64,000 bases of DNA from Sycon ciliatum (taxonomy: Eukaryota; Porifera; Calcarea; Leucosolenida; Sycettidae). The stretch is taken from contig NC_088651.1 of assembly GCF_964019385.1 (NCBI RefSeq), positions 5,934,373-5,998,372 of the forward strand, in the 5' to 3' direction. The notes beneath the pieces were generated by a model. It was not told the origin of the DNA and did no database searches. It saw only the letters and a program-made list of their open reading frames with translations. The position numbers and the translations under genes are program-made. Below are positions 40,613 to 64,000 of the stretch, piece by piece (the first letter of the stretch is position 1; each line of letters opens with the position of its first letter).

Positions 40613-40789
40613 CCGACTCATGGAGCCACCGCAGCTGCAGCCACACACTACAGCCCCGGACGTCAGCAAAGTGCTAGAGATGTATATGGCACTGGCCCCG
40701 CTAGTGGAGAGGATGCGGGGGAGCTTGACGTTACGCTGCTGCTTTCAGACACTGGCTTTCTTCGCCGCTACCCAAACCTATGGAGAGAG
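40613..40789 (+). CDS. CARD giant gene, first recognised exon (helix before CARD1)
   Basis: The acceptor follows TTCTTGCCCAG and the donor is GTGAGT at 40790. The chosen frame ends ELDVTLLLSDTGFLRRYPNL then WRE, which aligns with the exon at 46349 (DVNKVLEDPVFLERYDDL then WNE). This homology selects the frame over the competing MEPPQLQ frame. It ends in phase 0, matching the CARD1 exon. No in-frame ATG is seen, so the true start lies further upstream or the left splice site differs. The final 22 residues are probably the first helix or lead-in of a CARD module. Confidence 0.6.
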
Positions 40790-41557
40790 GTGAGTAGCGT
40801 TGGATGACTGTGTCAGGGTCGTCGGCCACACTACAATAACTACGGTATTGACTGGACTTCTCTTTGTCCCGGATACCCTGTGAATGACGAAAAGCACTGA
40901 TCTGGGCTCTAAATTTCGAAATTTTCCAGAGGAGCCACCCCAACCCCACGAGTAAATTGTACTTCAGGTGGCTGACCCTACCACACAGAAATACCTTCCG
41001 ACGCCCGTGTGTGTAAATGTAAATTTGACTGAATGCTGTCATGTGACTTGAGATTAGGAAAATCAGATCCCATCTGAACCGACTGACTGAAAGTACTCGA
41101 GGTACAGGAAAACTCCTCTTATCCGGATGCCCCTCTGATCCGGGCACATCCATCTACCGGGCACTTTTCTGACCGCTCTCGAGTCACAAAAAATGGTTTT
41201 CCAGTTTGAAAGTGCCTCAAGAACTATTGACTGGTGTAAAGCCATTCTACTTACATGTAGAGTTGGTCTGCAAATTTTCGGTATGTTTAAATTTCTGCCT
41301 CCCAGGGCTCAAACACATTTCGGCCGCATTACAATTTCGGCCTGTGCTGCTGCTGCCTGTACGCACTGTCACACTGAACCCTGCAAAGGAAAATTTCAGC
41401 CGCGACAAGTTTTTGGCCAAAAATGCCAAGGCCGAAAATAGCCGAAAATAAATTTGCTGGGGGAGGGGAAAAGACCCAAGTGCCATTAGTATGTGTGGCA
41501 CGTGTTGTGAGCTGTCTTTGGAGTGAAAAACTTGTCAGCACCTTCTATATCCGGCCT

Positions 41558-41630
41558 AGCCCCGTAGCTCAGATGGTTAGAGCATTGCTCATAACAAGCA
41601 ATGTCCCGGGTTCGAGTCCTAGTGGGTCTG
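41558..41630 (+). tRNA. tRNA-like sequence with Pol III signals (pseudogene/SINE)
   Basis: AGCCCCG pairs with TGGGTCT as an acceptor stem. Box A TAGCTCAGATGG, box B GGTTCGAGTCC, a perfect anticodon stem TTGCT/AGCAA and a T7 terminator are present. The loop CATAACA has A instead of U33 (anticodon position TAA) and the T stem has a mismatch, so it is likely a pseudogene. It lies in the intron between the 40613 exon and CARD1. Confidence 0.6.
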
Positions 41631-42527
41631 GCATTTTTTTCTCTTTTCAGGCAGTCCACTGCCCCGGCTGATCCTTTGAAAATGATATGTTTTAGAATTG
41701 CGATCAACAGAACGAGCTGAACCGTCATTTCACAAAGGCTGTATTGTATCAAAAACGAGTGGATGCGAAGCTGAGTTACGGGCAATCCCTGGTCATGGGT
41801 AGTTCTCGGTCCAAACCTGCCTGGATAAGGGCAGTTCTACTGTACTTATGGGGGGGGGGGAAGTGGCAATGCAGGCTCAACCGAATCACATGTCGAACTG
41901 TGTGTATGTGCTGCATTGACTAAGCGGGAGGGTGACACTGGCTTACATCGGCCTCACAGGCAAAGCCACGTGGGCGGATATCCACGGCAGTATTGCATGC
42001 GTGTGGTATGTGGTGTGTGGTGTGTGGTGTGTGGTGAAGTTCAAGTCACATCTCCTCTTAATCCTACCCACCCTGTGACCAGCATCTTACTCTCATGTTT
42101 TCTTGAACTTCTTCCATACATTTCCTATCATTTCACCCAAAGTATCTCTCTCTTCAGGGTGTTTGGAGTATGGAAGTAAGTGTGCTAAAAAAAGAAAGAA
42201 AAAAGTTCTGTGCCTACCTCTCTAGAACAGCAAAAACACTACTGGAGTAATTTTGCACCCCTCCATCGCAAAGACATCCACTCTTGCTGCCCCATCCTTT
42301 GCCTTATTTTCTCCTCTTCCCTCTCTTCAGTGTCCTCTTTATAGGCACGCAGACTGACACTCACCCACACAGAGACCCTGAGGTCACCTTGGGCGGGTGT
42401 GTTTCCCACGTGCTTGTTATTGAGTTTGAGTCTAGCAGGGTACTTCAGTTACACTGTGTTCTAATTCCATGTTCTATATCTTGTACACCTTGTATATCTT
42501 GTGCTACATCTTGTGTGCATCCTTTAG

Positions 42528-42795
42528 GCTGATGTTCTGTGCAAGACTAAGCTTGCTGAAAACCTAAGGGTGAAAGACATGATCAACTATTTTCAGGAAT
42601 GGCTGTCTCCAAGAGATCTTCAAAGCCTTGCAGAAGGCACAGACTTTGGCAAGAGTGAGACGCTGATAGAGATATTGGAGAGAGGCCACAACGCTACCTT
42701 TGTACCCTTCTTTGAGCAACTCTGGGAGCACCAGCAAACTCTCCCAGTTGTTCAGGAGATCAAATCTCAGCTCATAGAGTTGTACAGAAAGCGTG
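42528..42795 (+). CDS. CARD giant gene, CARD1 exon
   Basis: The acceptor is CATCCTTTAG and the donor GTAAGC. The exon has 268 nt, phase 0 to 1. It encodes ADVLCKTKLAENLRVKDMIN, then YFQEWLSPRDLQSLAEG, LIEILERGHNATFVPFFEQL and WEHQQTLPVVQEIK. This is the CARD pattern of amphipathic helices: an LSxxDLxxL turn, then a LLxxLxxxGxxxFxxFxxxL helix pair. CARDs bind other CARDs to assemble signalling complexes. It is paralogous to the other three CARD exons of this gene. Reading past the donor into the intron gives only low-complexity peptide. Confidence 0.82.
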
Positions 42796-43246
42796 GTAAG
42801 CCGCGATTGCTTCCGCCTGGATTTGCTTGCTTTGTGTCAGTTGTGAAACAAGGAGATCGAAATGCTTGGAGTGCATCTGAAGGCAAAAAATATTTGTATG
42901 CCTCTAGAATAGACTGGTATAACCCCCCCCCCCCCTCTCCCCCCCTCCCCCCTTCATTGGCAGTACCTGTGTTGTTCATCAGGTCATAAACCCCCTTCTA
43001 TTGGCAGTGCCTGGGTCACGGTCACTTCCAACTCTTCATTAATGTGTTGGATGCATAGAGAGTTCTACAAGGGAATTTCAAATTACAGACAATCAGTGTT
43101 CGGACAAGGGTATGATACTTTATGTATTCTTCAATGGTCAGGCCTAGGGGAATCTTGGAATGTTTGCTGAAAGGAAACTGGGGATTTTTAGTGAACAATT
43201 TTCTTGGTGTGCTGATTGTAAAGTGTGCTATTGGAGTGACTAAGTA

Positions 43247-44166
43247 CAGTCTACTCGCGATAAGTCACGCACAGTGTCCTGGAATGGAAAATGCGCGACT
43301 TACCGCGAGTGCGCGACTTACATTATGCACCACGTCATGCATATGTACAGCCGTCATTTTTTCTTCTGCATAATTATGGACATGTGTGCTGAACACGCGT
43401 ACAAGCACTGAGCTGCATGCGCACGGTACACTTACTGTCTGTAGTGTACACTGACTGTACACTGCTGTACACGAGACGTAGATCTACCACAGCGTGAAGC
43501 CATGATCGATATGAAGGCATGATCGAGAAAGACAAGTAACGACGTTCCGTTACTTTTGCCGTTTTGGTAGGGATTTGACAAGACGCACTTCTGTTTCCGT
43601 CGTGTAAACACTTCGTTTCCCTTTGCTTGACGATGCCTTCTCATAAGAAAACGAAAAAACAGCGAACAGTGGCTGATCGACTGCGTTTGGTTCGTCTCTA
43701 TCGTGAGAGTGGAAAAATCTCCGCTCGAAAATTTGCGAAGTTGAACAATGTTCCGGATGCGATGTTCCGCGGCTGGCTGAGGGATGCTGAAGCTGGCAAA
43801 CTCGCCGATGCTAATCCGTCTGGTCCACAGGGAGTCCGCAACAGAAGTTTCCAGTTCGGGAAAATTGAGGAGCGGCTAGTGAAGTATATTTTGCTTCAAA
43901 GGGAGAAGTTTGTGACTGACAAACTTGGATTGTCGTGGGTGATCCTGAGGGAGAAGGCTCTCATACAATATGCAAATAATAATTATATTCTTACCTTTAC
44001 AGTATTCAAGCTCCATCATTGAAAACCACATCATTCGCAAATATTCACGAAATCCACAAAATCCCGAAAAATAAAAAATTCTTGAGATGGATGTCCTGGA
44101 TGAAAAAGTGCGTGACTTATCGCGAGTGCGTGACTTAAAAGTGAGTGACTTATCGCGAGTAGACTG
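43247..44166 (+). mobile_element. pogo/Tigger element (920 bp), intronic
   Basis: The TIR CAGTCTACTCGCGATAAGTC is near-identical and inverted at both ends, and TA flanks each side (43245-43246 and 44167-44168). A subterminal repeat of GTGCGTGACTTA and GCGCGACTTAC motifs is present. It encodes one short frame and lacks the DDE domain. Confidence 0.88.
43633..44022 (+). CDS. CENP-B/pogo-type DNA-binding protein, truncated transposase
   Basis: Starting at the ATG, MPSHKKTKKQRTVADRLRLV leads into a psq-like helix-turn-helix: ESGKISARKFAKLNNVP then MFRGWLRDAE. The start of the CENP-B HTH follows (KIEERLVKYILLQREKF...LGLSW). This N-terminal pair of DNA-binding domains normally precedes a DDE domain in pogo transposases. 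Here the frame diverges into unrelated residues (NNNYILTF) and stops, giving about 130 residues and no catalytic domain. It is either a deletion product or a binding-only protein able to recognise the element's ends. It has no link to the surrounding CARD gene beyond intronic location. Confidence 0.75.
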   Translation: MPSHKKTKKQRTVADRLRLVRLYRESGKISARKFAKLNNVPDAMFRGWLRDAEAGKLADANPSGPQGVRNRSFQFGKIEERLVKYILLQREKFVTDKLGLSWVILREKALIQYANNNYILTFTVFKLHH

Positions 44167-44285
44167 TAAGTGTATCAATTTGTGTGTGCATGTGTGTGCA
44201 ATGTGCATGCATGAAGGCATGCATGCGTGAGTACATTTGTATGTTTGGGCATAAATTCATGTGTTTGCATTGTGTGTGTATGTGT

Positions 44286-44289
44286 GTAT

Positions 44290-44345
<56 letters not shown>
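44286..44345. repeat. (GT)n microsatellite
   Basis: About 60 bp of mostly pure GT repeats, with variant TGTATG units continuing to about 44415. Confidence 0.95.
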
Positions 44346-44349
<4 letters not shown>

Positions 44350-44481
44350 ACACGTGTGTGTGTGTGTGTTTATGTGAGTGTACATGTGTGTGTATGTATG
44401 TGTATGTGTATGGCCATGTTTATGCGTGTGCCTGTGTGCCTACATGTACACGTACGGTGGTGCATTACCTGCTGGATGCAG

Positions 44482-44503
44482 TGGAGGAACAGAATCCCAT
44501 CAG
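44482..44503 (+). CDS. Candidate 22-nt linker exon after CARD1
   Basis: The acceptor is TGGATGCAG and the donor GTGAGT at 44504. The length gives phase 1 to 2, matching the CARD1 exon end. It also matches the 1 to 2 phase of the linkers after CARD2 and CARD3. It would encode VEEQNPI. Very short, so support is weak. A further phase 2 to 0 exon would still be needed before 46349. Confidence 0.3.
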
Positions 44504-44921
44504 GTGAGTTATTATCTGGTGACAAGGGCAGGAGGGCACTCGATCTGAGTAGGGGGCACCCCGTCCCCCCGGGGCACCCCCCCCCCCACACTACCCGGAT
44601 TGAGCGCCCTCGTGTGAAAAAGTGGCACTCCCCCCCCCCCCCCTACTCATTTGTTGATTTTTTTAGTTTTTCAGGCCATTCAACAAAAATGCAGTCGATA
44701 GTCACTAACAGAGCATTCGTAAAGGCATACTTATCTGGGGTGAAATCGGGGTACGTTGCATTTTGGATGGCAAGACAATTTTGGAAAGTGGAAAAATGTT
44801 GTACGAGGTAGCTGTTTCCCTTGCCCCTCCCCCCCCCCCTCCCCCCTCCCCCTCCCCCCCTCCCCCCCTCCCCCACCTAATATTTTTACCTGGCTAGAAA
44901 CCAGTTACCTGAAGTACTCCT

Positions 44922-45112
44922 ACATCTTCACGACAATCTCCAAACGGTCTCTGCGCTACACCAATCACTAACGGAAAAAAGAGGATGATAATCATTTGAA
45001 TTTTCGACCAAGTCCCATCTTCAGGATCTTCCTGAAAATTCGAATGATTATCTCTTTTTTCTTTTAGTGATTGGTGTAGCCCAGAGACCGTTTGGGAGAG
45101 TGTCGTGAAGAT
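44922..45112. repeat. Inverted repeat with ~78-bp arms
   Basis: CATCTTCACGACAATCTCCA...ACACCAATCACTA (from 44922) is mirrored by TAGTGATTGGTGTAG...TGTCGTGAAGATG (to 45112). The loop at about 45001-45032 itself contains GATCTTCCTGAAAATTCG. It is intronic. Confidence 0.75.
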
Positions 45113-46348
45113 GTATGGGTATAGTGGATGGCTACAGTGGAGTCTTCGTATTTTGAGAAATAGAACCCTGAAGAGCATTTTTTTACGTGAAACTCATTGT
45201 TTTCTTCACTCCACTTATCCAGGCTATCTAATCTTGTTCTTAAATTTCCTCTCCCTTTCCATCGCCATCATAACATTGGGCATGACTGCCCGTTTGACTT
45301 GCGATGTAGAATAGAAACAAGTACAATACGGAATACAAGCAGGGGAGTCGGGCACGGTACGGTCACTACAGTATTGACCGTACCACTCTTTGCCCCAGGT
45401 ACCCCGTGAATCAATAAAATCATGCACTTAGTTGGGCTCTGAATTTCCAAAAAAATTGGTTTTGCTGTTTCTTTATGTGCACAGCCATGGTGGAGAGCAG
45501 TGGTACTATTTTGCCATTGTAAGTTGTTTACTTTGATTTCTTGTTTGGTTTGTTTGAAGTTTTATTACTTTTACATCGCAAACCCACCGGTCATTGATTC
45601 CTAATATCATGATGGCGATGGAATAAGATATGAAGTGTGGCTCAAAACAGCACGAGCTATACTCAAGATACTGAGACAGTTTCCAAACATTTAGGGCTGC
45701 AACGGGTAGGGGTTTGACCGGGTAACGAGTCCGGGTATTTTTTATCCGGGTAGCACGGTTATCATATCAGGTGTTTTTTGACATAGTTTGTACAGTGAGT
45801 GTGCACTTTTGCTACATAGAAAGTGTACAGTAGCAAGTCACCATGCTATTTACACGCACCGTTGCAAAAACACCGTACTCCAACTACCCGATCGGGTTCT
45901 CAGGAGCAAATTACTACCCTACTACCCGATCAAATTACGGGTAGCACGGGTACCCTACTACTCATTGTCACCCCTACAAAAAATAGCCGTGACACCCTGG
46001 CAAGACATGCACCAGCCACTCCACACCACATAACTGCAAATTGATTGCCGTTGTGCTACGGAAGCAATTTTAGAATTGCCTTTTGCAAGGTTGTATGGTC
46101 ATAAAGTTTGTGCCGAGTGCCAAATCCCTGTACATACTTGGACATATAGTATTGATACTCTCCAGAATAACTGTGGACTGCAGTCAAAGCAGAATATTTA
46201 TTCAGTGAATAATTTTATCCAAGTCTGAAGAATGGCACTCATCGGCACAATAGCTTTACGCAGGGAGGGTAAAACCTATCGGAACAAAATATTTGTAGCG
46301 TGCCCGACTTTTTCCCCTCTTCTTTTCGTGGTCTTGTGGTTCTCCTAG

Positions 46349-46411
46349 GATGTCAACAAGGTTCTGGAAGACCCAGTTTTTCTGGAACGCTACGATGACC
46401 TTTGGAACGAG
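46349..46411 (+). CDS. CARD giant gene, helix exon before CARD2
   Basis: The acceptor is GTTCTCCTAG and the donor GTGAGA. It has 63 nt, phase 0 to 0, and encodes DVNKVLEDPVFLERYDDL then WNE. It aligns residue for residue with the end of the exon at 40613, which shows that the helix exon plus CARD exon pair was duplicated as a unit. Confidence 0.72.
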
Positions 46412-46610
46412 GTGAGATATGCTGCAGAATCCAGACACCGAGTTTGGCCTGGGAAATGATTATCATGATAATGTTGTATGCTGTGCTAGCATGCTCTTGT
46501 GGCTTGACTACAACAGATTCAAGTCTAACGCCCCCCCCCCTCCCATGGCCTACTCTGCTCGGGTAATAGGCCAGGGGAATATGTTTGCACCTGCAATGCT
46601 AATACCCCCC

Positions 46611-46745
46611 AATGCGTTGGACTGGTCTGTCCGAAGAGATCTAAAGATTGTTGAACTTGCCATCAGCAACGCCCAGAACCAAGTTCATGACCGCCAACAA
46701 TGGCGAGGAACTGTCAACAGATGCATTAACTCATGCTTCGGGTGA
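46611..46745 (+). pseudogene. LINE reverse-transcriptase C-terminal remnant
   Basis: ALDWSVRRDLKIVELAISNA followed by VHDRQQWRGTVNRC matches the tail of many LINE ORF2 proteins (DL...A.DR.KWR..V). Only about 45 codons remain. It lies in the intron before CARD2. Confidence 0.55.
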
Positions 46746-46830
46746 TATGCAAAACGGTGTATTATTTATAAATTTCGGAGTAGTGTGACATGATTGGCAG
46801 TATCCATGGCAGCATGGACGTACATGTAGG

Positions 46831-46945
46831 AGAAGTGTTTGCTCCCCACACTAGAGCTCGTGCTTTCCGCCGACTTGACTTGGCACTTGGCTGACTCTCG
46901 ATTGCGATCCAGAGCACACGAGAAGTCAATCAAGCCTTCCACTCA
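46831..46945 (+). mobile_element. Half arm of the CCGACTT foldback family
   Basis: It matches the left arm at 17885-18000 with about 85-90% identity by eye (TTTGCTCCCCAC, GAGCTCGTGCTTTCCGCCGA, CCAGAGCACACGAGAAGTC). The complementary arm is absent. Confidence 0.65.
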
Positions 46946-46999
46946 TATAGTACCAGGGGCGCAGCTGGTCCCCCTTCCAGGGGGGTGCCCAGCCGCATA

Positions 47000-47196
47000 C
47001 AATCAACTTCGCTAATAACGCTAATAACGACTGAGGATATTACGACAATTCGCGAATAATGACAGAATGTCCATGCCCAGAGCAAAGTCCCTTCTACCTG
47101 TAATGCATGTAATGAGACTTCGTGTATAACGACACTTCGCGAATAAGGACACTTTTCTGATGCCCCGCCGAGTGTCGTTATACGCAAAGTTGACGG
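47000..47196 (-). mobile_element. Tigger-like MITE CAGTCAACTTCG, copy 2 (inverted)
   Basis: It has diverged TIRs (CAATCAACTTCG and CAAAGTTGACGG) with TA on both sides. The interior is the reverse complement of the copy at 36331. Confidence 0.8.
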
Positions 47197-47781
47197 TATG
47201 TACATGTACCTATCCGTTTGCAAGGGTGATCACATTGCTTACAGTTACATGGGGTGGCTCCTGACCGAGAAATGAATTGAGAAAATAGTGAATTTGCAGC
47301 GAAGAGACCACTTGCTTTGAGGATGGTGTGCGTAGAGTTTTCATTTCAGTACATTGCTTACAAACAAACAAAAAACGCTGCGTCCCTTGTGACGTCGTAA
47401 TGAAGTGAATTGTGCCGTAGTGGTTACATATCCGCTTGAAAGCTTTTCTCATCCCCATTTTTTAGATCCAACTTCTTTCACAAGGAAAAAGACTTGAAAG
47501 CCAAAGCCTTTAGAGCTTGAAGAGTTGCATCCTTTTCTGACTGACAACTACGACTGAATCGAAAAACCACCAGCACTCTTCTTCTTCGACCACCCTTTTC
47601 TCGAACTGATCGAATGCATTCGGGTCGCCACTTCAAGACCGATCCAGTCCTATTCTGCCCAGACTAGACACCTCTAGCCCTTGGCTCTTTATTTTCGCCT
47701 GACCATTGGTCCTGCAGTTGCCGGACCTGCCAGACTGGTCGCTACGGCCGTGGATAGTATGAACGTGTTGATGATTACAGT

Positions 47782-48044
47782 ACTGTCAGGCGCCGAAAAA
47801 CAGCCAGGCTAGAATTTCACCAATTAGAACGGCCTAGGCTGGATTTTTTGCAGATAAGAACGGAAACCGTAATGTACACTATAATGTACACTCAGACGTA
47901 TAACTCTGCATAAACATGTACATGTAAAAGTGTACCATCGAATAAGAACGAAACTGCTGTGTTCGCTAAAAATAAGAATGGGCTAGGCTCGAACCCTGCC
48001 TCCCCCCCCCCCCCCCCCCCCCCAGTTCTTCGGCGCCCGACAGT
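47782..48044. mobile_element. MITE with ACTGTCAGGCGCCGAA ends
   Basis: ACTGTCAGGCGCCGAA at the left and TTCGGCGCCCGACAGT at the right are inverted. A poly-C run of ~22 lies near the right end. It sits only 66 bp before the CARD2 acceptor. No clear target duplication was read. Confidence 0.65.
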
Positions 48045-48110
48045 CCTGTATGTATGGTTGTTGTACACGTTCTTGCTGTGTCTTTACGCTCCACCATCGT
48101 GTTACTGCAG

Positions 48111-48402
48111 GTGGCCAGGAAGCATATGCAAAGTCAAGATCACATGCAAGAGTTGTGCAAGGTTATCAATGCTGCCGACTTGCTCAACCTTGTCAGCTCA
48201 CAGCATCTCTTGGAGGAGCACACGATACGGGAACTGGAAACGAAGCAGGGAGACGACTTAAACCGTGACTTACTACTTCGGCTGCAGGAAGGTGGCAATG
48301 AAACGTTCGTGCCGTTCTTCCAGCATCTGTGGAGCGAGAGCAAGGATGTTGACGTTGTGCAGCGGATGCATCGGCAGATACTGCACTTGCTGCATACCTC
48401 CG
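48111..48402 (+). CDS. CARD giant gene, CARD2 exon
   Basis: The acceptor is GTGTTACTGCAG and the donor GTGAGT. It has 292 nt, phase 0 to 1. It encodes VARKHMQSQDHMQELCKVIN, ADLLNLVSSQHLLEEHTIRE, LLLRLQEGGNETFVPFFQHL and WSESKDVDVVQRMH. This is the clearest CARD of the four: Leu-rich helix, LVxxxLLEExxxxEL, then LLxxLxxGGNETFxxFFxxL. It is closely similar to CARD1 in the ATFVPFFEQLW / ETFVPFFQHLW stretch. Confidence 0.87.
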
Positions 48403-48472
48403 GTGAGTATTTAGATAGTCTATCTTCACATTGCTGGTTTTCCTTCCTCTCATCCCGACACATGTACAGGCA

Positions 48473-48487
48473 CACACACACACACAC

Positions 48488-48524
<37 letters not shown>

Positions 48525-48559
48525 CACATGTACACACTAATGCACACATACTCACGCAT

Positions 48560-48596
<37 letters not shown>
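48473..48596. repeat. (CA)n microsatellite
   Basis: Two long CA runs are separated by CATGCACATGTACACACTAA-type sequence, 70 bp downstream of the CARD2 donor. Confidence 0.95.
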
Positions 48597-48597
<1 letters not shown>

Positions 48598-48797
48598 CTG
48601 TAGCTGCTACTACAATAAAACTCCCCTTATCTGGGCAGCTTGTGTCCGATCCCTGCCTGTAACTTGTAATTTCCCGTAGCTCACAACATGCATGAACGTG
48701 CGTTTACTGCATTCAAGTAAACGGTTTGTATGCCAATCAATAGTTTTGGGGGTATTTTTGTGTTGAGAACCCAATTTATTGTAATTCTAGATGGGCC

Positions 48798-49124
48798 GCA
48801 GGCAGGCATAGTGGGATGGTCTAAGACCATGATTGAGAAGCAGAGGGCACCAGGTTCAAGTCCTGCTTGGCACCGGAAGGATTTTTTCCAGCCGTGCTGC
48901 GACCCACAGTTAATTGGGAACTCGTGGCCTGGCATGAGGGAAGCATGGATGCAGCGAATGAGATTTTCGGTCTTTGACCACTTTGCTGGTGGGTCTGATC
49001 TACTCACCTCCCGCCGCTTTAGGAGCTGCATCTGCACCTTGATCTTTGAGGGTTGTGGCGTCCCAGCGGATGCGGAAAATTCGGCCTCCGGGCGAGTCTC
49101 ATGCTAACCGCGAATCTTTCTTTT
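48798..49124 (+). mobile_element. tRNA-derived SINE, longest copy (327 bp)
   Basis: A tRNA-like head contains CACCAGGTTCAAGTCCTGC (box B) after a GATGGTCTAAGACC box-A-like segment. The body (GTTAATTGGGAACTCGTGGC...GGAGCTGCATCTGCACC) ends in a T-rich tail. It is flanked by 14-bp target duplications, ATTCTAGATGGGCC (48784-48797) and ATTCTAGATGGGTC (49125-49138). It is collinear with the shorter copies at 31747 and 22095. Confidence 0.9.
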
Positions 49125-49138
49125 ATTCTAGATGGGTC

Positions 49139-49470
49139 GGGAAGGTGCCCGGATTAGGGACATGCCCGGATTAGGGACGTGCCCGGATTAAGGACGTGCC
49201 CGGATTAGGGACGTGCCCGGATTAGGGACGTGCCCGGATTAGGGACATGCCCAGATTTGGGACGTGCCCGGATTAGGGACGTGCCCGGATTAGGGACGTG
49301 CCCGGATTAGGGACATGCCTGGATTATGGACATGCCCGGATTAGGGACATGCCCGGATTAGGGACGTGCCCGGATTAGGGACGTGCCCGGATTAGGAACG
49401 TGCCCGGATTAGGGACGTGCCCGGATTAGGGACGTGCCCGGATTAGGGACGTGCCCGGATTAGGACGTCC
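49139..49470. repeat. 17-bp minisatellite
   Basis: About 19 tandem copies of GACGTGCCCGGATTAGG, with A/G and occasional other variants. It directly follows the SINE's right target duplication. Intronic. Confidence 0.93.
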
Positions 49471-49623
49471 GTGATTAGGCGAGTTTTGCTGTACTTCTTT
49501 TAGACTAGTGCTGAGAGGTTTTCCTTTATTTGATAACAAACTAGGTGAAGTGAATAACAATTCAGATTACTCAGATATAACCGAAAGCAGAGGAAGCAAT
49601 GGTGACACTTCTTGTCCAGTGAA

Positions 49624-49626
<3 letters not shown>

Positions 49627-49673
<47 letters not shown>
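49627..49673. repeat. (TTA)n microsatellite
   Basis: About 15 uninterrupted ATT units. Confidence 0.95.
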
Positions 49674-49737
49674 CGCTTGTTCGCGTTGACATTACCAAGC
49701 AAGCTTGGCTAGTCTTCGCATAAGCCAAATGAACAAA

Positions 49738-49870
49738 AGAAAGGGTTTGCTCCCCACACCGGAGCTCGCGCTATTCCGCCGACTTTAAGTAAAGTCGGCG
49801 GAATAGCGCGAGCTCCGGTGTGGGGAGCAAACCCTTTCTTACAAATCATCGCCGAAGTCGCAACCACTAC
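49738..49870. mobile_element. Snap-back hairpin of the CCGACTT foldback family
   Basis: Arms 49740-49789 and 49794-49843 are perfect complements (AAAGGGTTTGCTCCCCACAC...GCCGACTTTA). The sequence to its right, ACAAATCATCGCCGAAGTCG, equals the reverse complement of that flanking the foldback element at 17896. This shows a shared parental element. Confidence 0.8.
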
Positions 49871-50314
49871 TTCGAACAAAAGAATAGGAAAATAAAATCA
49901 GAAAACAAGAGGATCAAGGCAATTTAGGAATAAAAATCCACACACGCAAACACCATCCAAATAGCACTTGAAGCCAATCCATCTAAATGTTCAGACGAGA
50001 GGAAAACCAGACAATGCAACCAAAGAAAACGAGTGATTTAACCGTCACATGCCCAAAACAATATTATTATAATGGAATTAAAATGCTGCACTAAATATAC
50101 AGACAGTACAGCCTTTGGAGACTTATATCTTCTCTTTCGAGGATACAAAGGCGCTCTGGTATTTTTGCAGAGGAATGGTGGGTCTTTCCTGGTTCTTTTG
50201 AGACCAAAATGGTGCAAACTCATAGGGTTAATATTGCCATATGTGTGGCCATTGAATATTCTGTTTGTGGGTGTGTGTGGTGTCTGTGTGCTTGTTATCT
50301 GTACGTGAGTTTGT

Positions 50315-50410: not shown

Positions 50411-50447
50411 GCAACAAAAAGCCACCGGACTCTCAGGGCACATCCGT
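50411..50447 (+). CDS. Candidate 37-nt linker exon after CARD2
   Basis: The acceptor is GACAACTCAG and the donor a perfect GTAAGT. It has 37 nt, phase 1 to 2. With the CARD2 end it reads GNKKPPDSQGTS plus a split Val. Phase matches both neighbours and the equivalent exon after CARD3. Confidence 0.45.
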
Positions 50448-51076: not shown

Positions 51077-51098
51077 ATCAACGTTTGAGTTGTGGAAG
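51077..51098 (+). CDS. Candidate 22-nt linker exon before CARD3
   Basis: The acceptor is GATCTGTAG and the donor GTAAGT. Phase 2 to 0, encoding STFELWK. It ends in a x-L-W-K/R/N-type helix end like the exons at 40613 and 46349. In phase with both neighbours. Confidence 0.45.
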
Positions 51099-52328: not shown

Positions 52329-52490
52329 TCTGGAAAACCCGGTAATACTCTGGAAAACCCGGTAATACTCTGGAAAACCCGGTAATACTCTGGAAAACCC
52401 GGTAATACTCTGGAAAACCCGGTAATACTCCGGAAAACATGGTAATACTCTGGAAAATCCGGTAATACTCCGGAAAACATGGTAATACTT
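52329..52490. repeat. 20-bp minisatellite, 8 copies
   Basis: TCTGGAAAACCCGGTAATAC is repeated in tandem. The first five copies are exact and the last three vary (CGGAAAACATGG). It lies 44 bp upstream of the CARD3 acceptor. Confidence 0.95.
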
Positions 52491-52533: not shown

Positions 52534-52813
52534 GTCGTCAAAAAAGAAGAAGAAGATCTCAGTAAGCTGATGGCATCCGAGTGGAAGCGCCTGCTGCAAA
52601 AAATGCGCTTTGACCTTGAAATCTCCATCGAGGAACGCAACGAGATTGAGTCTCAACAGACCGACTTTGCTAGGTTCAAAGCGCTGCTCAGAGTCTACGG
52701 TCGCAAAGGAGAGGAAAGCTTTGCAGTGTTCTTGGACGCTCTAAATGAACTGGATTTGATGTCCAAGGCAAACACACTCCGTCAACTGGCGAAAGATGAA
52801 TTCAGTCTACCCG
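52534..52813 (+). CDS. CARD giant gene, CARD3 exon
   Basis: The acceptor is TTACTGTTAACAG and the donor GTGAGT. It has 280 nt, phase 0 to 1. It encodes VVKKEEEDLSKLMASEWKRL, then LEISIEERNEIESQQTDFAR, ALLRVYGRKGEESFAVFLDA and LNELDLMSKANTLRQLA. It fits the CARD helix pattern (ISxEExxxIE, LLRxxxRKGxESFxxFLxAL). The N terminus is a short acidic/basic helix rather than part of the fold. Confidence 0.83.
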
Positions 52814-53824: not shown

Positions 53825-53870
53825 ACGGCTACCTGGAGAAATTGGACACTAGAATGAAGCGCAACAGAAA
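53825..53870 (+). CDS. CARD giant gene, linker exon after CARD3
   Basis: The acceptor is GACTTCTGCAG and the donor GTAAGT. It has 46 nt, phase 1 to 2. It reads [15 protein letters not shown] and then half of a Lys codon. It joins the CARD3 end (CCC G) and the next exon (GGCC...) without frame conflict. Confidence 0.6.
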
Positions 53871-54393: not shown

Positions 54394-54431
<38 letters not shown>

Positions 54432-54475
54432 TGTGTGTGCGTGTGTATGTGCGTATGTGTGTGTTTGTGTTTGCA
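54299..54475. repeat. Compound (GT)n repeat
   Basis: About 175 bp of GT repeats with regularly spaced GC and TT interruptions, 33 bp before the next exon's acceptor region. Confidence 0.95.
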
Positions 54476-54507
54476 CATGTGATCTGCTTGTCTGTGTGTA
54501 CTATCAG

Positions 54508-54544
54508 GGCCCGTCAAGATCCGGGGAAAGAGATGTATCGGAAG
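54508..54544 (+). CDS. CARD giant gene, linker exon before CARD4
   Basis: The acceptor is GTACTATCAG and the donor GTAAGC. It has 37 nt, phase 2 to 0, encoding ARQDPGKEMYRK. Together with the exon at 53825 it bridges CARD3 and CARD4 in frame. Confidence 0.6.
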
Positions 54545-54898
54545 GTAAGCAGGGGTGTAGCATAGCCCTTTTCAGTCCGATTTGGAAGGTCATGTGACAT
54601 GACATAGTGTGCACAAGTCACCCTATTTTCATTGTTGCAGCCAAGTATACTGACTCAGCAAGCTCCTTTTATTTGGAAGTTTTGCGGCAAACTGCACTCA
54701 GAAACGAGTCTGACTCAGCAGGCTATACATCATTCACCTTTGATGTTGAACTACATATACTATCGGCTGCTTCTTAGGAACGATTTGCTGGAGGCTCGGA
54801 CTTTGAGACTTGCAAACAAACATGCTTCTTTTCCTTGAGTGGCAGGGAACAGCAAGTGGGTACAAAGACAGCACAGTCTAGTCTGTCACTTCACACCA

Positions 54899-54958
54899 GG
54901 GTTCAGGGTCCAGGGTTCAGGGTTCAGGGTCCAGGGTTCAGGGTTCAGGGTCCAGGGA
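54899..54958. repeat. (GGGTTCA/GGGTCCA)n short tandem repeat
   Basis: Heptamers GGGTTCA and GGGTCCA alternate with a 21-bp higher-order period. It looks telomere-like but is too short and variant to be telomeric. Confidence 0.85.
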
Positions 54959-55440
54959 GTAGTAAAACAATTTGTCTCCTTAGCCAAGGCGTACCCAGAT
55001 TCTACATGAAAGGCAGGAGATTTCTCTGGTGTGTGTGTGTGTGGGGGGGGGGGGGGAGTATATCAGTATCTTATTGTGTCCGTACCCGAAGGACACTCTC
55101 GTCGGCCGCTAACACCCGGTAAACCCTAGCGGCAGATGGAGCGCCTACCAGTGGGGGTTGCTGTTGATTCTTATCTTACTTCGCAAGGCCAGAGTGAGGG
55201 GAGACGTTTCACAACCACTGGCACAAGTGCCGAGAAATCCCATAAGCCACATGAGGGGGGGGGGGGGTGCTTCATGGGTGGGTGGGGGGGGGGGGGGGGC
55301 TTCATGAATATTCCTCCAAAACGTGTGTTGATATGTTTGAAATTATTCATTCCCGATTTTGGGCTCGTGACACATTACTACTGCTATTCTTGAGCATCAT
55401 GGACCTCCTATCTATTTGCAATGCGAATACTTTTGCCCAG

Positions 55441-55711
55441 ATCATCTACCCGAACCTGCACGACTTGAGTCAATGCATGACGGTGAGAGATTTCCTCACC
55501 GACCTCAGAACCAAGGACGTGGTCAGCTCCAGTCAGAAAACCGACATTGAAGAGAGAGGAAAGGACCCAGTCGATCAGGCTGGCTACCTGCTGGACTTGA
55601 TGCAGCACAAGTCGGAAACGCAGCAGAAGGACTTCCTGTATATTCTGTACAAGCAACCCGGAAAGGTCAAGGACATTGCTAAGGACCTGCTACAGCAGCA
55701 TTTCGAAGGGG
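55441..55711 (+). CDS. CARD giant gene, CARD4 exon
   Basis: The acceptor is CTTTTGCCCAG and the donor GTATGT. It has 271 nt, phase 0 to 1. It encodes IIYPNLHDLSQCMTVRDFLT, LRTKDVVSSSQKTDIEERGK, AGYLLDLMQHKSETQQKDFL and VKDIAKDLLQQHFEG. It fits a CARD (L-x-x-x-DVVSxxxxxDIE, LLDLMxxK...KDFLxxL), more diverged than CARD2. An upstream ATG (55398) in the same frame could give an alternative start, but the phase-0 acceptor fits the pattern of the other CARD exons. Its last base joins the terminal exon to give GVGKSQK. Confidence 0.8.
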
Positions 55712-56942
55712 GTATGTACATGTACATAGCATTAGAACTTTTTTAAATTAATTTTATGGATCTGTGTGTCTGGCTGTGTGTCTGGCTGTGTGTGTGTGTG
55801 TGTTTGTCTGTATGTGTCTCTCTTTCTGTCTGTATGTCTGTCTGTCTGTCTGTCTGTCTGCCGGCCTGCTTCACTCGTTCTTCCTATTCTCCTACTTGCC
55901 CTGTCTTTTTCTTCTTTTCTCTTATTCGGGTACGCGAACAAACTTCGAATATGCAATGGTGATAAGATGTCATTGCATCATTCCTCCAATGGGAGTTGGA
56001 TGTACCGGTACGCCTTGCTTCTTCTTCTTAGTGGTGCTCCTCCTGCGGAAATGTTCACGTCGAACTGACTCTGCTGTGAGCCACGAGAGGGCTTGAAAGC
56101 CCAGGAGCCCTCGCTATGCTTTTTTTGTATTTTACCTAGGTCATCATGACTATGTGCTATTCGAACGTATAGAAATGATTTGCAATACAAAACCTTGTGC
56201 CGGATAGTGGTTTTGCAAAGACTTTTCTATCAGTTCGAATAATACATGGCCTACATTGAAGGTATAACAAAAGCATATTGAGGGCTCCTGGGATTTCAAG
56301 CGTTCTTGCTCCTATTTTTTTTCGGTAAAGATTTGCATTATCATTGTCTGTACCGGCCGAGCATTAGCGTGCATAGCGAAATTTCTGCCTCCTTTTATCC
56401 CTGCGTGGATCACTATTAGTGCTTGGCTCCGAAACCTCTGCTGGTTGCCTTCTGAACACAGTCAAAACTAAACTGAAAAGCAGGGTACAAGAGCGAGGGG
56501 TTACAGCTTCTTATGACAAAGCAGTGCAGCCCAGCCACCTCTGTCTGTGCACCAATCCAAGTTACCTCACTTTTTTTTAGCCCCTCGTTTTGTGCCTCGG
56601 TTCCGTGTTTCTTCTGGTCAAGTTTTGTCTTTGCTAAATATCCCGGGTCTCTTGATTAAGCTGTCACAGTGAGTGAATGAGTTCCACACAGGGACGAAAG
56701 GAGATACTGTGGCTCGACAATGTCAGTTGTCTGATAAATTGACTAAGGACATGAAACTAACAGGTCCATGCCACCCTTTTCTCTCCACCCAACCAGTTTT
56801 CGAGCCGTGAATGGCATCTTTGTATGTATCAGTAGAGCTGACAGTGTGCGGTATGTGGAGTGCGTCCGACACTCAGTGAATTCCAGCCTGTATGTTTATA
56901 CATTTTGTCTGTCTTTGCGTGCGTTGCTTGTTCCCTCTGCAG
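55712..56942. other. Intron before the terminal exon
   Basis: TGTC/TGTG-rich simple sequence at about 55770-55865. Nothing else was recognised. The acceptor TTCCCTCTGCAG ends it at 56942. Confidence 0.55.
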
Positions 56943-59900
56943 TTGGCAAGAGTCAGAAAACTGCCAAGCGACTGTGGTACTCGACGGCACTGGGCAAAGA
57001 GGAGCACGCCATCAAGCTGGACTTCACTAGGCCGGTACCTGCCATCGTGGAAACGCCACCGATACTAGTGGACCGGGATGCCATCAGGTACTTGCGCATT
57101 GCCCTGGAGAAGGTCGGCAAGTGTACCAGCAAGCTAGGAGGGCAAGCTGTCGATGGGCAGCAGCCAGCAGACGGCGACGGCACTGCATCCGCAATGAAGT
57201 ACACGAACCTGAAGGTGCTGGTCATGGCCGGGAACCGAGAATGCATCGAAGGCATCCTGCATGGCCACCAAATTGCCGACGGCAAATCTCTGGCACACCT
57301 GGTCGACGTGGAGCCAGGATCCAGCGTCCTGTGCTTTGTGGACAACGTCACGGACGCGACGGGAGAAGCGTACCTTGTCCTTAACCTGCACGAGCATGAG
57401 CCCATCCGCACGGCTTGTCAACTTCTCAACCTGACGATGGATGCGTCCGACTCTGTTCTACTGGCATTCACTGATCACGACTGGCCATGGGATCGAGACA
57501 CAGCGGGAATGCAACGCTCCATGAGCGGCACCAGGATCGTGTTCAAGGAGAAGTTCGGAAACCTGAAACGGCATCCCAAGCAACTCGACCCGAACAACCC
57601 TCTCAAGCTTCTTCGAACCAAGTATGCTTGGTACGGCTGCAAAGGATCGCTTGCCTGGCAAACACGGCGGCTTGCAATAGCTGTCACGCAGCCCTACCAG
57701 ACGGTACAGTTTCCAAGTGAAAACGACGCGCGCAAGGAAGAAGCCATCAGGAGCTGCTTCAACGTCACCGACAGCAGACAATCAAACACCCCACGCACTG
57801 CCACTGCCACTGCAACTCCTGGCACGACCGACATGGGGAACGTACCGATCATTGAAGGTCCTATCATCCAGCCAATGGATAGAGTTGACCTTCGCAAGCT
57901 ACCGCGCCAGCCAATGGTCCAGTTTGACCAGCTGTTCATCAATATGGCCCTGGGCCCAAGCCTCTCCGTCCTCTCAACCGTCTCACTCGACTCCGATGAC
58001 CCACTGCCCCAGGATGCAAGCAGCCATGGTGACACCTCATCTGCAATCTGTCGTCAGTGCTTTGCATCCAATCCTGTTCCGGTCGAGCAGCGAGCCAAGT
58101 TTGTGGACGTTGTGCACAATTTGATCGAAGTGAGTCCACTGGCGAGCGAGCTACGTCACCGCAGTGACCCGACGTATGTTACAACCGTATTGACCGACGA
58201 CGAACTCAGTGCGATGACTATTGCCAACATGTGCTCCGGCGGAATGATGGCCGCTAGCATACCGGGTGATGCCAAGGTCGCTGCCATTAAACCGGGATGC
58301 GGCAGGAGACCGGAGGTGGAGCAGCGGAAACATGCTCGACTGCTTCTCTCCACGCGCCTTCTCAACATGAGGGTGCACAACTTTTTCTGCTTCGAAGGCT
58401 TGCATCTGCTCTCTCAAACCAAGGAACCTTTCCAGGACGCAGCCATGTCGCTCCTCTTACCAGCAGTAGCACTAAGCAATGTCTTCATCGTCTGCTCTGA
58501 CAATCCAGTGGGTGCAGTCAAACGGCTTGTCGCGGTTATCAAGGAGATGAAAGAGCATATGAAATCGCTCTGGGTTGATCCGAAGGAGAAGGAGTCCAAG
58601 CTAGACCCTCAGAAAATCGACAGCGGCCTGTTTACGGGCCGTCTCCTCGTACTGTCCACGTCTCAGCAAAGCAACAACGACAATGGATCCCAGAGACGCT
58701 GTCACCTTGACCGAGAGGATAAAGACACTCTCAGCGAGTTCTTCGGAGATTATGATGAGCGGCATTACGACGGAGTTCAGCTTGAAGCAGCGCAGCGGGC
58801 GGCGTGCGTTCGACAGTTTGCGGCGGAACGTATCACGGCTCACCTCGGCGAGCTTTCGACGCCGTGCTTCAAATCAGCCGGTTTCCACGACTCGCTGTGT
58901 TTGATGCTGGGCGCTGCTGCCGCTGCTTGTACTAGCTTCACATCGCTGAAGCTCAGCCAAGTCCATCACCGTGAAACCATAGAGTTTTTTGAGCTCTTGT
59001 TCACCGCGCTAAGAAGCGGAGAGTGGAATGGCAAACCTTGCAACGGTGGCACCCAAGAGTTAAAAATCGACGGAGAGGTCGTGGAGCCGTACCATCGACC
59101 GCAGAAGTACAAGTGGTCCATGGATTCCGGCTTACCCCTCGATTTCAAAGTGGATGTGGATAGTGCCGAGATAGACAAGTGCCTCGACGGCGTCGAAAAG
59201 CTGCTGAGCGATGCTGCCCGTGACATGATCAACACTCTGCGTGTTGATATCGCAAGAGCCGTACTGAAGTCTGAAGAAGACTGGTGGTCTCGAGGCCCGG
59301 CCGCTCTCCACACTCAGACCAAGACAGCGCTGGACATCCTCTGCAAACGCCGGCAAAGAGCTGTGAAGGCACCGTCCCACGCTCACAGGCAGGAACTGAA
59401 GGGAACCGTCGACCTTGAAGCAGAAACCAAATCCTGTTTCAGCTTCTTTGAGTCAATCTGGGAGCCTTGCGACCAGCCATGCTCCTACAAGCCCTGTCAC
59501 CTGCTTTGTCTGCAGCCGCGTGGTCATCGCGACAAGCATGACTGTCTGTTTGATCACGGCAAGCAAGACAAGCATTACTGCGGCAGACCTTGCACGTATT
59601 GTCGGGAGAAGAAGACCAGGGAAGGCGAGCCCGGCCAGTGTATGGCGGGAGCAGGTCACGACAGCCGTCGTTGCCAGTGCTGGCAAGAAGGAGATAACGT
59701 GCCTGCACAGCACAAGTGTGAGGAGCTGTGCAAGTACCAGGATGCCTGGGTTCACACGCATGGTAGTCGCGCGCAGGTGAGGAACTCAATTTGCCACAAG
59801 GATGCTCTGCATGACGAACCCAGCAGGGACGGCGAACATATTGGCGATGACCAGGCCGAACACAAATGCTCCGCTGAAAGACACACCTGTGCGCAGCAGT

Positions 59901-62900
59901 GCCAACTTCGACTGACTTCTCGAGCACGGTGCGAGAAATACTGCCTGCACGACATCGACAAGGGGCAAGGCCATGACCTACACACGTGTGGTGCCACAGA
60001 TCACAAGTGTCCAGACGTATGTCAAGCTGAAGGTGTGTGTGCTATAGCCAGCAACTCGGAGCCAGAGTTAGACCTCAACATCTGCAGAGACGAGGAGCAG
60101 CGAATCGGTGTGAACGGCTATAAGATGTTCTGCGGCTCGACACTGGACGCCATGACCCTGACGCACAACGGCAATCACCAGTGTTGCAAGGAACAGAAAG
60201 ATCACACGTGTACAGAGATCTGCCCACTGTGCAGCATGGTGTGTCATCTCGGCTGGGACCACGCGGGTCCGCACGATATGAAGCACGGAGAGATCCGGAA
60301 CAGTTGCTTTGCCAGGGTGCGTAATGGCCGAACGCATGAGTTGGTGTCCCATGATACACCGCCAAGATGCGATCAGCTCTGCCCTGGCAAGGACTACATG
60401 CGGGGTCACGAACACATCTTGTCCAAGGATATTGTGTCATTGCTGGCCAAACGTTCCGGCGCATTTGACACCTCTGCCTCTGGCCATAGGCCATTCTTTC
60501 CACGCCAGGAACAAGACGGGGACAACCACAAGGTTGTGAATCACACATTCTTCTGGAAGAGGCTGAATATCGTTGATCCGAATGCGGGCAGTGTCGGCTT
60601 TGACCGTTGCCCTATGCAATGCCCAAGACATCCTGCGACCAGTGCACCCTACTGCACAGGCTCTCTGTGGCATGAAGCGTTTGATGAGAAACACGAGCCA
60701 GACGACAAAGGTTACACAGGAAAGGCAGTGAGGGAAGAGATCGACGGCGTCGAGCGAAAACAAAGCCGCGGCAACGAGCACGACGTATACATAGGCCACC
60801 ATTTCCCGTGCAGCGGAGAGCCGGATCATACGTGTAACGGACTCTGCACTCTACCCGAGAAACTGGAGAAATGCATGCGCGGCACGGAGCGTTCACGGTG
60901 TTCCAAGCCTGTGGGTCACCACGGTGTGTGCTCGTGTCAGACTGCTGAAAAGCACGTCTGTGGCATCCCGTGCCCAGCTACTTTGGAGTCCGGTCTTTGT
61001 GGAGAGCCTTGTGTACGGCGCGTCGAGGAGCATAACTCTGAAGATCAACCTGATCATGAGCTGCACTGGTGTGGTATTGATAGGTGCTGCATGAAATGTG
61101 CCTGTGGTGAGAACTGCTGCAAAAGCGGTAAGCCCCTTGATCACTTGCACGGTGGTGAAGATAAGCCAATACCTCATCATTGCGGCATTCGTCACGAGTG
61201 CCGGGAGCTTTGCGAGGAGGATGGCATCTGCATGCTTGCATCCGATCCTACTACTATAGACCCTGAGAAACACAAGCGGCAATCCAGTGATGGAAATGGG
61301 TATCGTTTGCTGTGCGACATCAAGAAGCCCGTCGGAGAGATAGAGCACGAGGAGAAGCACTCCTGTCGCAACACGCACACCTGCACTGTCCAGTGTCCGG
61401 GCTGCCACCGCTACTGCACACGAGATATCAATCACGAAGGCAATCACCGGCTCGATGAACATGGCCCGTACCGGAATCAGTCTTATGTTGTTCGCAACGG
61501 AGTCAACGATGAAGTTGCGGTCGTTGGTGAACGGACCTGTGGGCAGCTGTGCAAGGAAGCAGGGCGTGGCCATACTCACTGCAAGTTGGGACGCACAAAG
61601 CAGAGACATTCTGCATTCTGGGAGTCGTTTGGATTTGACTCTCCGTGCCCGGAAGACCGTGATTTCCTGGATGGCTGTCCGGTCAAGTGCAATGCAAAGG
61701 AACGACACCGACCTAAGGCCAACGTCTACTGCCAAGGGAAACTATTCCATGAGCCGAGTGATAAACCGGAGCTGGACTACGCGACCGCCGCCACATCTCT
61801 GATGTACACCGGACTGCAAATCTATGGAGTTGACGAGAATGGGCGGGAGCTGTGCGGCCACTGGTTTGCCTGCTCCACCAAGCACAAGTGTGCAGAGGCA
61901 TGCTTCCGCTGCTCCCGTGACGAAAATCAGAGCGAGAAAAGCGCGAGGGACGTGGCCTGTCGGTTCTACCGCCACGATCACGAGTCCCGGTGCAGGTGTC
62001 GCAAAGAGCACCACCAATGCCGCGTGGAATGTGAAGCTCCTGGCTGCAAGGTGTTGTGTACGCAAGATGACTACTATGAGCATGCGGACCATAAATGTGA
62101 TGCTACTGGATGTGAGAACAGGTGTGAAATTGGTAATTGCACGGCGGATTGCAATGCACCTGACCATGTTCACTCCACAAAGAACAAAGGGCTACACCAT
62201 TGTAATCAGCCGCACTCGTGTGCCAAGTACTGTGAAGTGGATGGTGTGTGCCATGTCACAACTATCCACGGGAAAGCACCAGAGGATAGCCGGGAACTTG
62301 TCTCCGGTTTAAGCAACACCACCGGATTTCAACTGAAGTGTGTGAAGCCGTTACCAGCCGGGAAGAAATTGCACGCAGGGAAACATGAGTGTTCCGCCGA
62401 ATCTCATACCTGCAAGGAGCAATGCCCACTGTGCAAACGTCACTGTGAACTACACGCTGGACACCACAAGAGCGGTTCTCTTCATCAGGTCCAGCACGGG
62501 ACAATCGTGACAGCCGTGAAGCTCTCGGTCGGGCTTGACGACGAGATCCACATTGAAGGAGGTGTAACATGCCAAGATATGTGCGAGAAAGGAGGACGAG
62601 GCCACTTACACATCGGAAGTGCTTACATGACTTTAAAGAAAAGCTTCAGCACTCATGCAAAATTCTGGCATGATATGAAGTTCAAAGACCCAGCTTCTCC
62701 AGAGCAGCAGAAGCAGTATGGTCTTTGCAGAAAGCCGTGTATCTTGCCGCACAGCAGTTATCCTCCATACTGTGCCTACGACGTGAACCACCTATACCCA
62801 ACTACCGATACTGCCAACCGATCGTCGGTATTTCATCACTGTAAGCAGCAACACATTTGCAACCAGCCCTGTGAGGCACTGGGAGTCTGTTTTATTCTCT

Positions 62901-64000
62901 CACCGGGTGGTCACGAACAGCCTCTGAACGTCACCGCAACCGCATTTCCCAACGGCTTCAGGAACTCATTCTGCAAGATTCCCATACCACCCCGTCTTCA
63001 AATGCATGACAAGTCCCACCACTGTGGTGTTGTCCACCACTGTAATAAGTCCTGCAGCATGTGTGGACACTGCTGTTCACTTCCATACGATCACACTGGC
63101 ACTGCCTGCTCCGTGACTCACGGTAGCATCAAGCTGGACGTTCTTGCCAAGATCGCCTTACTGGACAAGGATGGAAGAGAAGTGCAACTGCCAGATGCTG
63201 CAATCACCTGTAACAAGCTATGTAAGATTGCTGGGCCATCTCATTCTCATCTCATCTACGACGTGGATGCTGCCAGCAGCACCTCCACCTCATGTACCAA
63301 GGCAAGCCAAGTGTCTCATAGGACCTTCTGGGACAACCTGTCATTATTGGATCCATATCCTGAAGGGGAGTCGCGCCTATTCAACGCCTGCCCAAAAGTG
63401 TGTACCCTGCCTGGCCACGACGGCATTGAAAACAGGCGGTGCCTTGGTGAAATCCATCATCAACTCTACAACCCGGAGGCCGAGCCAGAACGAGGTTTCA
63501 CTGCTGAAGAGCGGCATGGACAGTTACAAGGCCATCGGTTCGAATGCGAAGAGCACGTCTGCGGTGACAAGTGTGAACTGTTTCAAGATGGACAACGGTG
63601 TGAAGGCACCTGCACTCTACTGGAAGGCCATGACAAGAGTGCGCAGCCCTGCAAGTGCAAATCAGCACACACCTGTCGCATCAAATGCCAAGATACCGAC
63701 TGCACACAGCGTTGCTCTAAGGATGACAACCATGAAGTCTCAAGCTCCAGCCCTCTGCAACACTACTGCCGGAATAGCCACAAGTGCAAGGTAGCATGCA
63801 ACGAGCATGGGCCATGCAAAGTTGTCCCAGAAGTAGAGAAAGAAAGCTTCATCGGCGAGAATTCCAACGCTGAGAAGATTGCTGGCAATGCATTCAAGCT
63901 TTTTTGCAACATACCAGTGCCACCTGGACAAGCCAAACATCCTGGTGTGAAACACAGCTGTCAACAGGCGCACGGATGTGACAAAACATGTCCATTGTGT
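56943..64000 (+). CDS. CARD giant gene, 7-kb terminal exon: central domain plus Cys/His array (partial)
   Basis: It is open in one frame for 2352 codons to the window edge, phase 1 from CARD4. Residues about 1-840 (56943-59460) hold a globular region with an AT-repeat linker near 57790. It includes VHNFFCFEGLHLL followed by PAVALSNVFIVCSDNP and RLLVLSTSQ, faintly like the switch and core strands of VLIG/GBP-type GTPases. No GxxxxGK[ST] P-loop is visible, so nucleotide binding is doubtful. From WEPCDQPCSYKPCHLLC (59461) onward the protein is Cys/His-rich. It has repeated HxCxxxCxxxGxC units resembling NF-X1 zinc fingers, CPLC...C with GHxGxHxxxHG, and TCGQLC...GRGHTHC. FW...F.DP...CP..C landmarks lie near 60550, 61616, 62663 and 63324. 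The paralogue at 10133-13394 suggests ~978 more codons beyond 64000. Function is inferred only: a metal-binding effector or scaffold coupled to CARD signalling. Confidence 0.88.

Follow-up and report, generated by a model that had tools for sequence, protein, structure and literature searches.

We analysed a window of 64,000 nucleotides from the calcareous sponge Sycon ciliatum (RefSeq assembly GCF_964019385.1, contig NC_088651.1, positions 5,934,373 to 5,998,372, forward strand). Its right-hand part holds a predicted giant gene that joins N-terminal CARD-type domains to a long array of Cys/His modules. The gene model was obtained by splice-aware assembly limited to GT-AG sites and guided by the RefSeq paralogue LOC135824572 (P0001), an uncharacterized S. 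ciliatum protein with the same architecture. The predicted gene comprises 14 exons with GT-AG introns, contains no in-frame stop and encodes 3849 amino acids (aa); the stop codon of exon 14 lies at 66925, beyond the window. By tblastn, P0001 (3846 aa) gave 11 collinear pieces spanning 40610 to 66919, which match 11 of the 14 exons. Exons 1, 4 and 9 were too short for tblastn and were positioned through the assembly. Model and P0001 are identical in 3532 of 3852 alignment columns. The features are as follows (window positions):

40189..40206, plus strand: exon 1 with the start codon, reading MASKYR (P0001 begins MASNHR)
40613..40789, plus strand: exon 2, N-terminal linker and helix 1 of CARD1
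42528..42795, plus strand: exon 3, remainder of CARD1 (CARD_2, 12.8 bits, cut-off 28.2)
44482..44503, plus strand: exon 4, micro-exon VEEQNPI
45485..45518, plus strand: exon 5, micro-exon SHGGEQWYYFAI (tblastn of P0001)
46349..46411, plus strand: exon 6, helix 1 of CARD2 (tblastn of P0001)
48111..48402, plus strand: exon 7, remainder of CARD2 (CARD, 14.3 bits, cut-off 23.9)
50411..50447, plus strand: exon 8, micro-exon (tblastn of P0001)
51077..51098, plus strand: exon 9, micro-exon STFELWK (gene model)
52534..52813, plus strand: exon 10, CARD3 (Pfam CARD, 24.8 bits, E 2.2e-5)
53825..53870, plus strand: exon 11, micro-exon (tblastn of P0001; counterpart in the P0001 gene)
54508..54544, plus strand: exon 12, micro-exon (tblastn of P0001)
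55441..55711, plus strand: exon 13, CARD4 (Pfam CARD, 24.2 bits, E 3.3e-5; counterpart exon in paralogues)
56943..64000, plus strand: exon 14, part within the window, continuing to the stop at 66925
56945..59461, plus strand: core, residues 524-1362, with a putative G-domain position lacking a P-loop and a GTPase-stalk-like part
58376..58486, plus strand: degenerate G3-like stretch HNFFCFEGL...SNVF, residues 1001-1037 (weak)
59462..64000, plus strand: Cys/His array from residue 1363 onward, eight FW-anchored modules in total, the last ones past the window

An earlier sequence-only reading of the window had proposed such a gene in an early-branching animal, as S. ciliatum is. All seven exon starts given there (40613, 42528, 46349, 48111, 52534, 55441 and 56943) equal exon starts of the model; the start exon at 40189-40206 and six micro-exons of 22-46 nucleotides (starts at 44482, 45485, 50411, 51077, 53825 and 54508) had been overlooked. 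The sizes estimated for the protein (about 3700 aa), its centre (about 840) and its Cys/His part (about 2500) were close to those of the model, which predicts 3849 aa with four N-terminal CARD-type domains, a core of 840 aa (523-1362) and 2487 aa of Cys/His modules (1363-3849). A version of exon 2 in an ATG frame was dropped in favour of the frame that agrees with P0001 and leads on to exon 3. With P0001 and GT-AG sites both used as guides for the model, neither these sites nor the agreement with P0001 is independent evidence. Independent support for the predicted gene is the intact frame across its 14 exons, together with the other copies.

To describe these copies, the 538-Mb assembly was queried with the core (818 aa), which gave eight matches at six places. 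The P0001 gene lies about 100 kb away on the minus strand and has 94% core identity. CARD3, a micro-exon and CARD4 stand ahead of its big exon in the same order as in the window gene, its CARD1 and CARD2 exons lying outside the piece examined. A further uncharacterized RefSeq paralogue of S. ciliatum, LOC135825335 (P0002), stops early, with CARD1 and CARD2 as its only CARDs. An upstream copy shows 91% core identity; some 16 kb of other DNA, with retroelement-like open reading frames, interrupts its array, and the RefSeq entry for its 5′ part is a 2435-aa protein. The 3′ part was located by tblastn, with its match at 10131-13391:

10113..13394, plus strand: upstream paralogue, 3′ part of the Cys/His exon

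Two paralogues are more distant. Paralogue D (C10) has 40-41% core identity, a frame of 3515 aa and 47% identity over residues 881-3836; a CARD4-like exon at C10:5732865-5733134 lies 1.5 kb ahead of the big exon (tblastn 41.8%, E 3.6e-15, and E 4.3e-15 in a second comparison). Paralogue E (C1) has a frame of 3436 aa and two core matches with 33% and 28% identity. In both D and E the big exon has its full length and the same end, directly after the last FW motif, so that a full-length big exon is found in three other copies, with 94%, 40% and 33% core identity. A core fragment in the genome has 41% identity. By eye, another giant frame at C1:23613500-23620499 contains the FW Cys/His module and a core that is more diverged still.

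With these copies at hand, we considered whether the CARD exons and the Cys/His exon belong to two adjoining genes that had been wrongly joined. Six of the joining exons are micro-exons, a point in favour of this reading. However, a single open frame runs over the 14 exons, the RefSeq model of P0001 has the same joins, the exon order is kept in the P0001 gene, and a CARD4-like exon precedes the big exon of the old paralogue D. On these grounds a two-gene origin was rejected as highly improbable, and the earlier view that one gene carries both the CARDs and the long Cys/His array held. The micro-exons might hint at transcript support behind the RefSeq model.

Comparison with the upstream copy gave ratios of non-synonymous to synonymous substitution rates (dN/dS) of 0.337 for the core, 0.461 for the 5′ part of the array and 0.514 for its 3′ part. 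As the upstream copy is broken, these are likely upper values for a working gene. Within the array, 214 of 216 Cys and 193 of 204 His are kept, compared with 1732 of 1968 other residues. Judged from these substitutions, the window gene is under purifying selection, with constraint on Cys and His. That the gene is a functionless copy, in decay or carried by a transposon, might be suspected from the retroelement-like open reading frames nearby and from the interrupted upstream copy. Such decay is hard to reconcile with 3849 stop-free codons, GT-AG introns, the Cys/His constraint and the other full-length copies, and we regard it as most improbable.

The CARD exons were scored against Pfam, with cut-offs of 23.9 bits for CARD (PF00619) and 28.2 bits for CARD_2, and were compared by hhalign with a profile of eight Pfam-CARD exons from the same genome (E-values are single-comparison values). 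CARD3 (24.8 bits) and CARD4 (24.2 bits) both exceeded the CARD cut-off and matched the profile at 95.7% (E 8.6e-9). CARD1 and CARD2 have a common two-exon layout with helix 1 on a separate exon, share 31% identity and gave a suggestive profile match (75.5%, E 2.4e-5). By these scores the assignment of CARD3 and CARD4 as CARDs is firm and that of CARD1 and CARD2 probable. Of the four CARDs originally proposed, two thus passed the Pfam check; the other two fell below the cut-off and are probable by hhalign. No match to NACHT/NB-ARC, helicase or caspase domains was obtained; Pfam listings for P0001 up to E 10, which are limited by HMMER filters that remove most matches above about 0.1, held CARD and a sub-threshold ARID only.

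The Cys/His array had been described as NF-X1-like. NF-X1 proteins likewise carry tandem Cys/His-rich repeats. The sponge module differs in its length of about 200-360 aa and in its FW anchor, of which eight occur (residues 1723, 2078, 2427, 2648, 2969, 3330, 3628 and 3831). At Pfam level no zf-NF-X1 match appeared up to E 10 in P0001 and P0002 or up to E 1 in the window pieces, so this identity was discarded; the modules are instead of an FW Cys/His type found next to VWA domains. A two-module profile searched against 1991 candidates gave a single match up to E 1, the metagenomic protein P0003 (E 3.3e-9; by BLASTP 27% over 324 positions, E 3e-17), whose end reads as the start of a VWA domain. 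A search from this end among 570 candidates gave six more proteins, P0004-P0009 (E 9.9e-28 to 1.7e-3, P0009 the weakest). All six match VWA_2, five above the cut-off of 27 bits and one at 22.9 bits. P0003-P0009, which are probably of protist origin, share the FW Cys/His module with the sponge gene and contain no Pfam CARD match. They differ in their C-terminal VWA (in P0003 only its start): the frames of the window gene, D and E end directly after the last FW, and P0001 has no Pfam VWA match. Queried with the array, the sponge genome yielded 45 matches, some of them in giant frames on C1, C9 and C4 that fall outside the family.

One of these relatives links the module to a GTPase:

C4:9830000-9839089: C4 gene, with a Q-rich part, B-boxes, RING, an intact GBP/URGCP-like GTPase, FW Cys/His module and VWA-like end

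The C4 protein has an intact P-loop (GKQSTGKS) and G3 motif (DFEGLGSMER). Its G domain scores 28.2 bits with Pfam GBP (cut-off 21.1) and 40.2 bits with URGCP_GTPase, below the cut-off of 55, and matches the GBP5 and GBP1 structures in the PDB (GBP5, E 3.5e-8). B-box and RING exceed their Pfam cut-offs; VWA_2 does not (19.4 bits, cut-off 27). P0009 keeps the G3 motif as well, its pre-array stretch holding DFEGLGTFER; its record lacks the P-loop part, and its best relevant PDB match, GBP5, is not significant alone (E 0.12 in 461 aa, 0.013 in 110 aa). Over G3 and stalk, with Cys/His excluded, C4 and P0009 aligned with E 4.7e-17 (211 columns, 25%). C4 also matched P0001 through the array (E 1.3e-26). 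The C4 gene and the CARD gene belong to the same genome and have a homologous stalk and the same Cys/His module; the C4 gene differs in its intact GTPase motifs, in RING and B-box in place of CARDs and in its VWA-like end. Another frame, about as large and likewise matched by the array, lies at C4:9759347.

By sequence, the core alone matched nothing outside Sycon and nothing in Pfam or the PDB; among 6266 candidate proteins, residues 1-1500 of the window part of the big exon found two at E ≤ 0.001, both from S. ciliatum. A five-sequence core profile, however, aligned by hhalign with C4 plus P0009 at 97.4% (E 1.5e-11) over 229 columns that extend from the post-G-domain stalk to the first Cys/His. 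With C4 alone the values were 96.1% and E 3.7e-9 over 85 columns, mostly junction. For the stalk without Cys/His (43 columns), none of 150 shuffles was as good. P0009 has the stalk-to-array junction in common with the sponge gene. Profile comparison thus shows the core to be kin to GTPase-Cys/His-VWA proteins from the stalk onward. The central region, of the length expected earlier, does not stand alone, its second part being homologous to the stalk of GBP/URGCP-like GTPase-Cys/His-VWA proteins, of which the same genome encodes one. The core matched no GTPase family among the Pfam G domains, and the P-loop motif GxxxxGK[ST] is absent from all three family members inspected (window gene, D and E). 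We infer from this absence that GTP hydrolysis was lost; the core is probably nucleotide-dead, and the simplest explanation of the stretch before the stalk would be a decayed GBP/URGCP-type G domain.

Candidate partners were sought in the same genome, where 82 Pfam CARD matches were found, 57 of them on C1 between 11.2 and 12.9 Mb. In the one neighbourhood of this C1 array that was read, an open reading frame resembles, by eye, an APAF1-like NB-ARC protein; at C4:39.03-39.06 Mb, CARD exons lie near a caspase-type exon, also by eye. Read in this way, the genome likely encodes CARD caspases and/or CARD-NB-ARC (APAF1-like) proteins as candidate partners.

A known system offers a comparison. Zebrafish Gbp3 and Gbp4 are reported to join a CARD to a GBP-type GTPase, and Gbp4 has an inflammasome role in which its GTPase is active and needed (PMC4932187). 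Gbp4 carries its CARD at the C terminus, and the passages on these proteins mention no Cys/His array (PMC4932187); the sponge protein has N-terminal CARDs and no P-loop. The sequence-only reading had set the gene apart from standard CARD architectures; the architecture is less isolated than was thought, because these fish proteins already join CARD to a GBP-type GTPase.

With moderate confidence, we favour as the best explanation of the whole a CARD-bearing scaffold related to the GTPase-Cys/His-VWA family, similar to an inflammasome or apoptosome. The core would hold a decayed GBP/URGCP-type GTPase that has lost the usual GTP binding or hydrolysis, and the array, probably zinc-bound, would be the recognition or assembly part. 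Upon engagement the CARDs would cluster and nucleate CARD-CARD filaments, which may activate CARD caspases and/or CARD-NB-ARC (APAF1-like) proteins of the same genome. The protein would then be a cytosolic scaffold in which the Cys/His array serves as sensor, replacing LRR, WD or helicase domains. An innate-immune or cell-death scaffold, as first suggested, is plausible as a function deduced from sequence.

Several results weigh against this scaffold. CARD1 (12.8 bits, CARD_2) and CARD2 (14.3 bits, CARD) are under the Pfam cut-offs, in exons tested without helix 1. An AlphaFold2 model of CARD2 without helix 1 was all helical, had a predicted local distance difference test score (pLDDT) of 55.5, too poor to judge, and gave no weighty death-fold match. 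By tblastn, CARD3 and CARD4 are missing from the upstream copy. Paralogue D has no further CARD in about 10 kb upstream besides its CARD4-like exon, and E none within about 9.4 kb upstream. The copy behind the dN/dS ratios is itself interrupted, and zinc binding by the array is probable from its Cys/His content alone. Finally, the G-domain stretch aligned with the C4/P0009 G domain at shuffle level (57 of 150 shuffles did as well), and a plain 395-aa alignment to P0009 was at chance level (96 of 500). A G3-like FEGL window did fall in register, as a second hit, with P0009 and with C4 plus P0009, weakly (6 of 150 shuffles). The shuffle-level alignment, the missing P-loop in the window gene, D and E and the want of a Pfam or PDB match would all suit a domain before the stalk that is something other than a decayed GTPase. 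On the other hand, this domain occupies the same place ahead of a homologous stalk as the C4/P0009 G domain, and the FEGL window, if weakly, is in register; we judge another origin rather unlikely.

Because E, D and the upstream copy show fewer CARDs, CARD number varies among the copies. This variation, and a CARD-bearing branch without P-loop and without VWA, would also fit a decoy or brake, in which an enzyme-less CARD-rich protein titrates away its CARD partners or is a competitor of a relative whose GTPase is active. Four tandem CARDs are present, however, and tandem CARDs usually favour activation; we consider a decoy improbable. A mainly ubiquitin-related or structural role, in which the array would act like an E3 or a scaffold of the cytoskeleton and localisation would fall to the CARDs, is suggested by RING and B-box alongside the same module in the C4 relative. 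No RING or B-box was matched by Pfam in the CARD-bearing branch, and we give this role little credence. Compared with these, a CARD-bearing signalling scaffold remains our preferred explanation.

Other observations in the window concern repeats and mobile elements. Intron 2 holds a tRNA-Leu(TAA)-like sequence (41557-41632), perhaps a tRNA-derived repeat, and intron 3 an open frame (43633-44020) with a helix-turn-helix and a transposase-like look. A tandem repeat of 20-base units lies at about 52340-52490, directly ahead of exon 10. The open frames 28063-30572 and 14975-17454 resemble pieces of reverse transcriptase and recombinase.

The combination of CARD with a GTPase-Cys/His-VWA relative was found in no other organism among the candidate proteins searched, these searches being sensitive only to proteins that share 5-mers and fall within a length window. 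Among the open-licence papers listed by our searches, none was seen to describe this combination or the GTPase-Cys/His-VWA family. The parts are known, CARD on the one side and a GTPase-Cys/His-VWA relative on the other; their combination appears new, in a family already in RefSeq as uncharacterized. The gene family is small, with six places in the genome, and S. ciliatum is a laboratory sponge. The gene would extend the small set of CARD-using receptor layouts in an early animal lineage and would tie CARD signalling to the GTPase-Cys/His-VWA family. Tentatively, and with considerable doubt, we suggest that a GTPase-Cys/His-VWA protein of ancient eukaryotic origin was converted in calcareous sponges into a multi-CARD sensor without catalytic activity, a separate and undescribed class of receptor akin to an inflammasome or apoptosome, in which eight Cys/His modules would sense and four CARDs would seed a filament. 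If true, sponges would have passed from cell-autonomous GTPase immunity to CARD signalling by a path of their own, alongside that taken by the CARD-GBPs in fish. The gene also makes testable the question of whether GBP-like GTPase immunity and CARD signalling were joined more than once.

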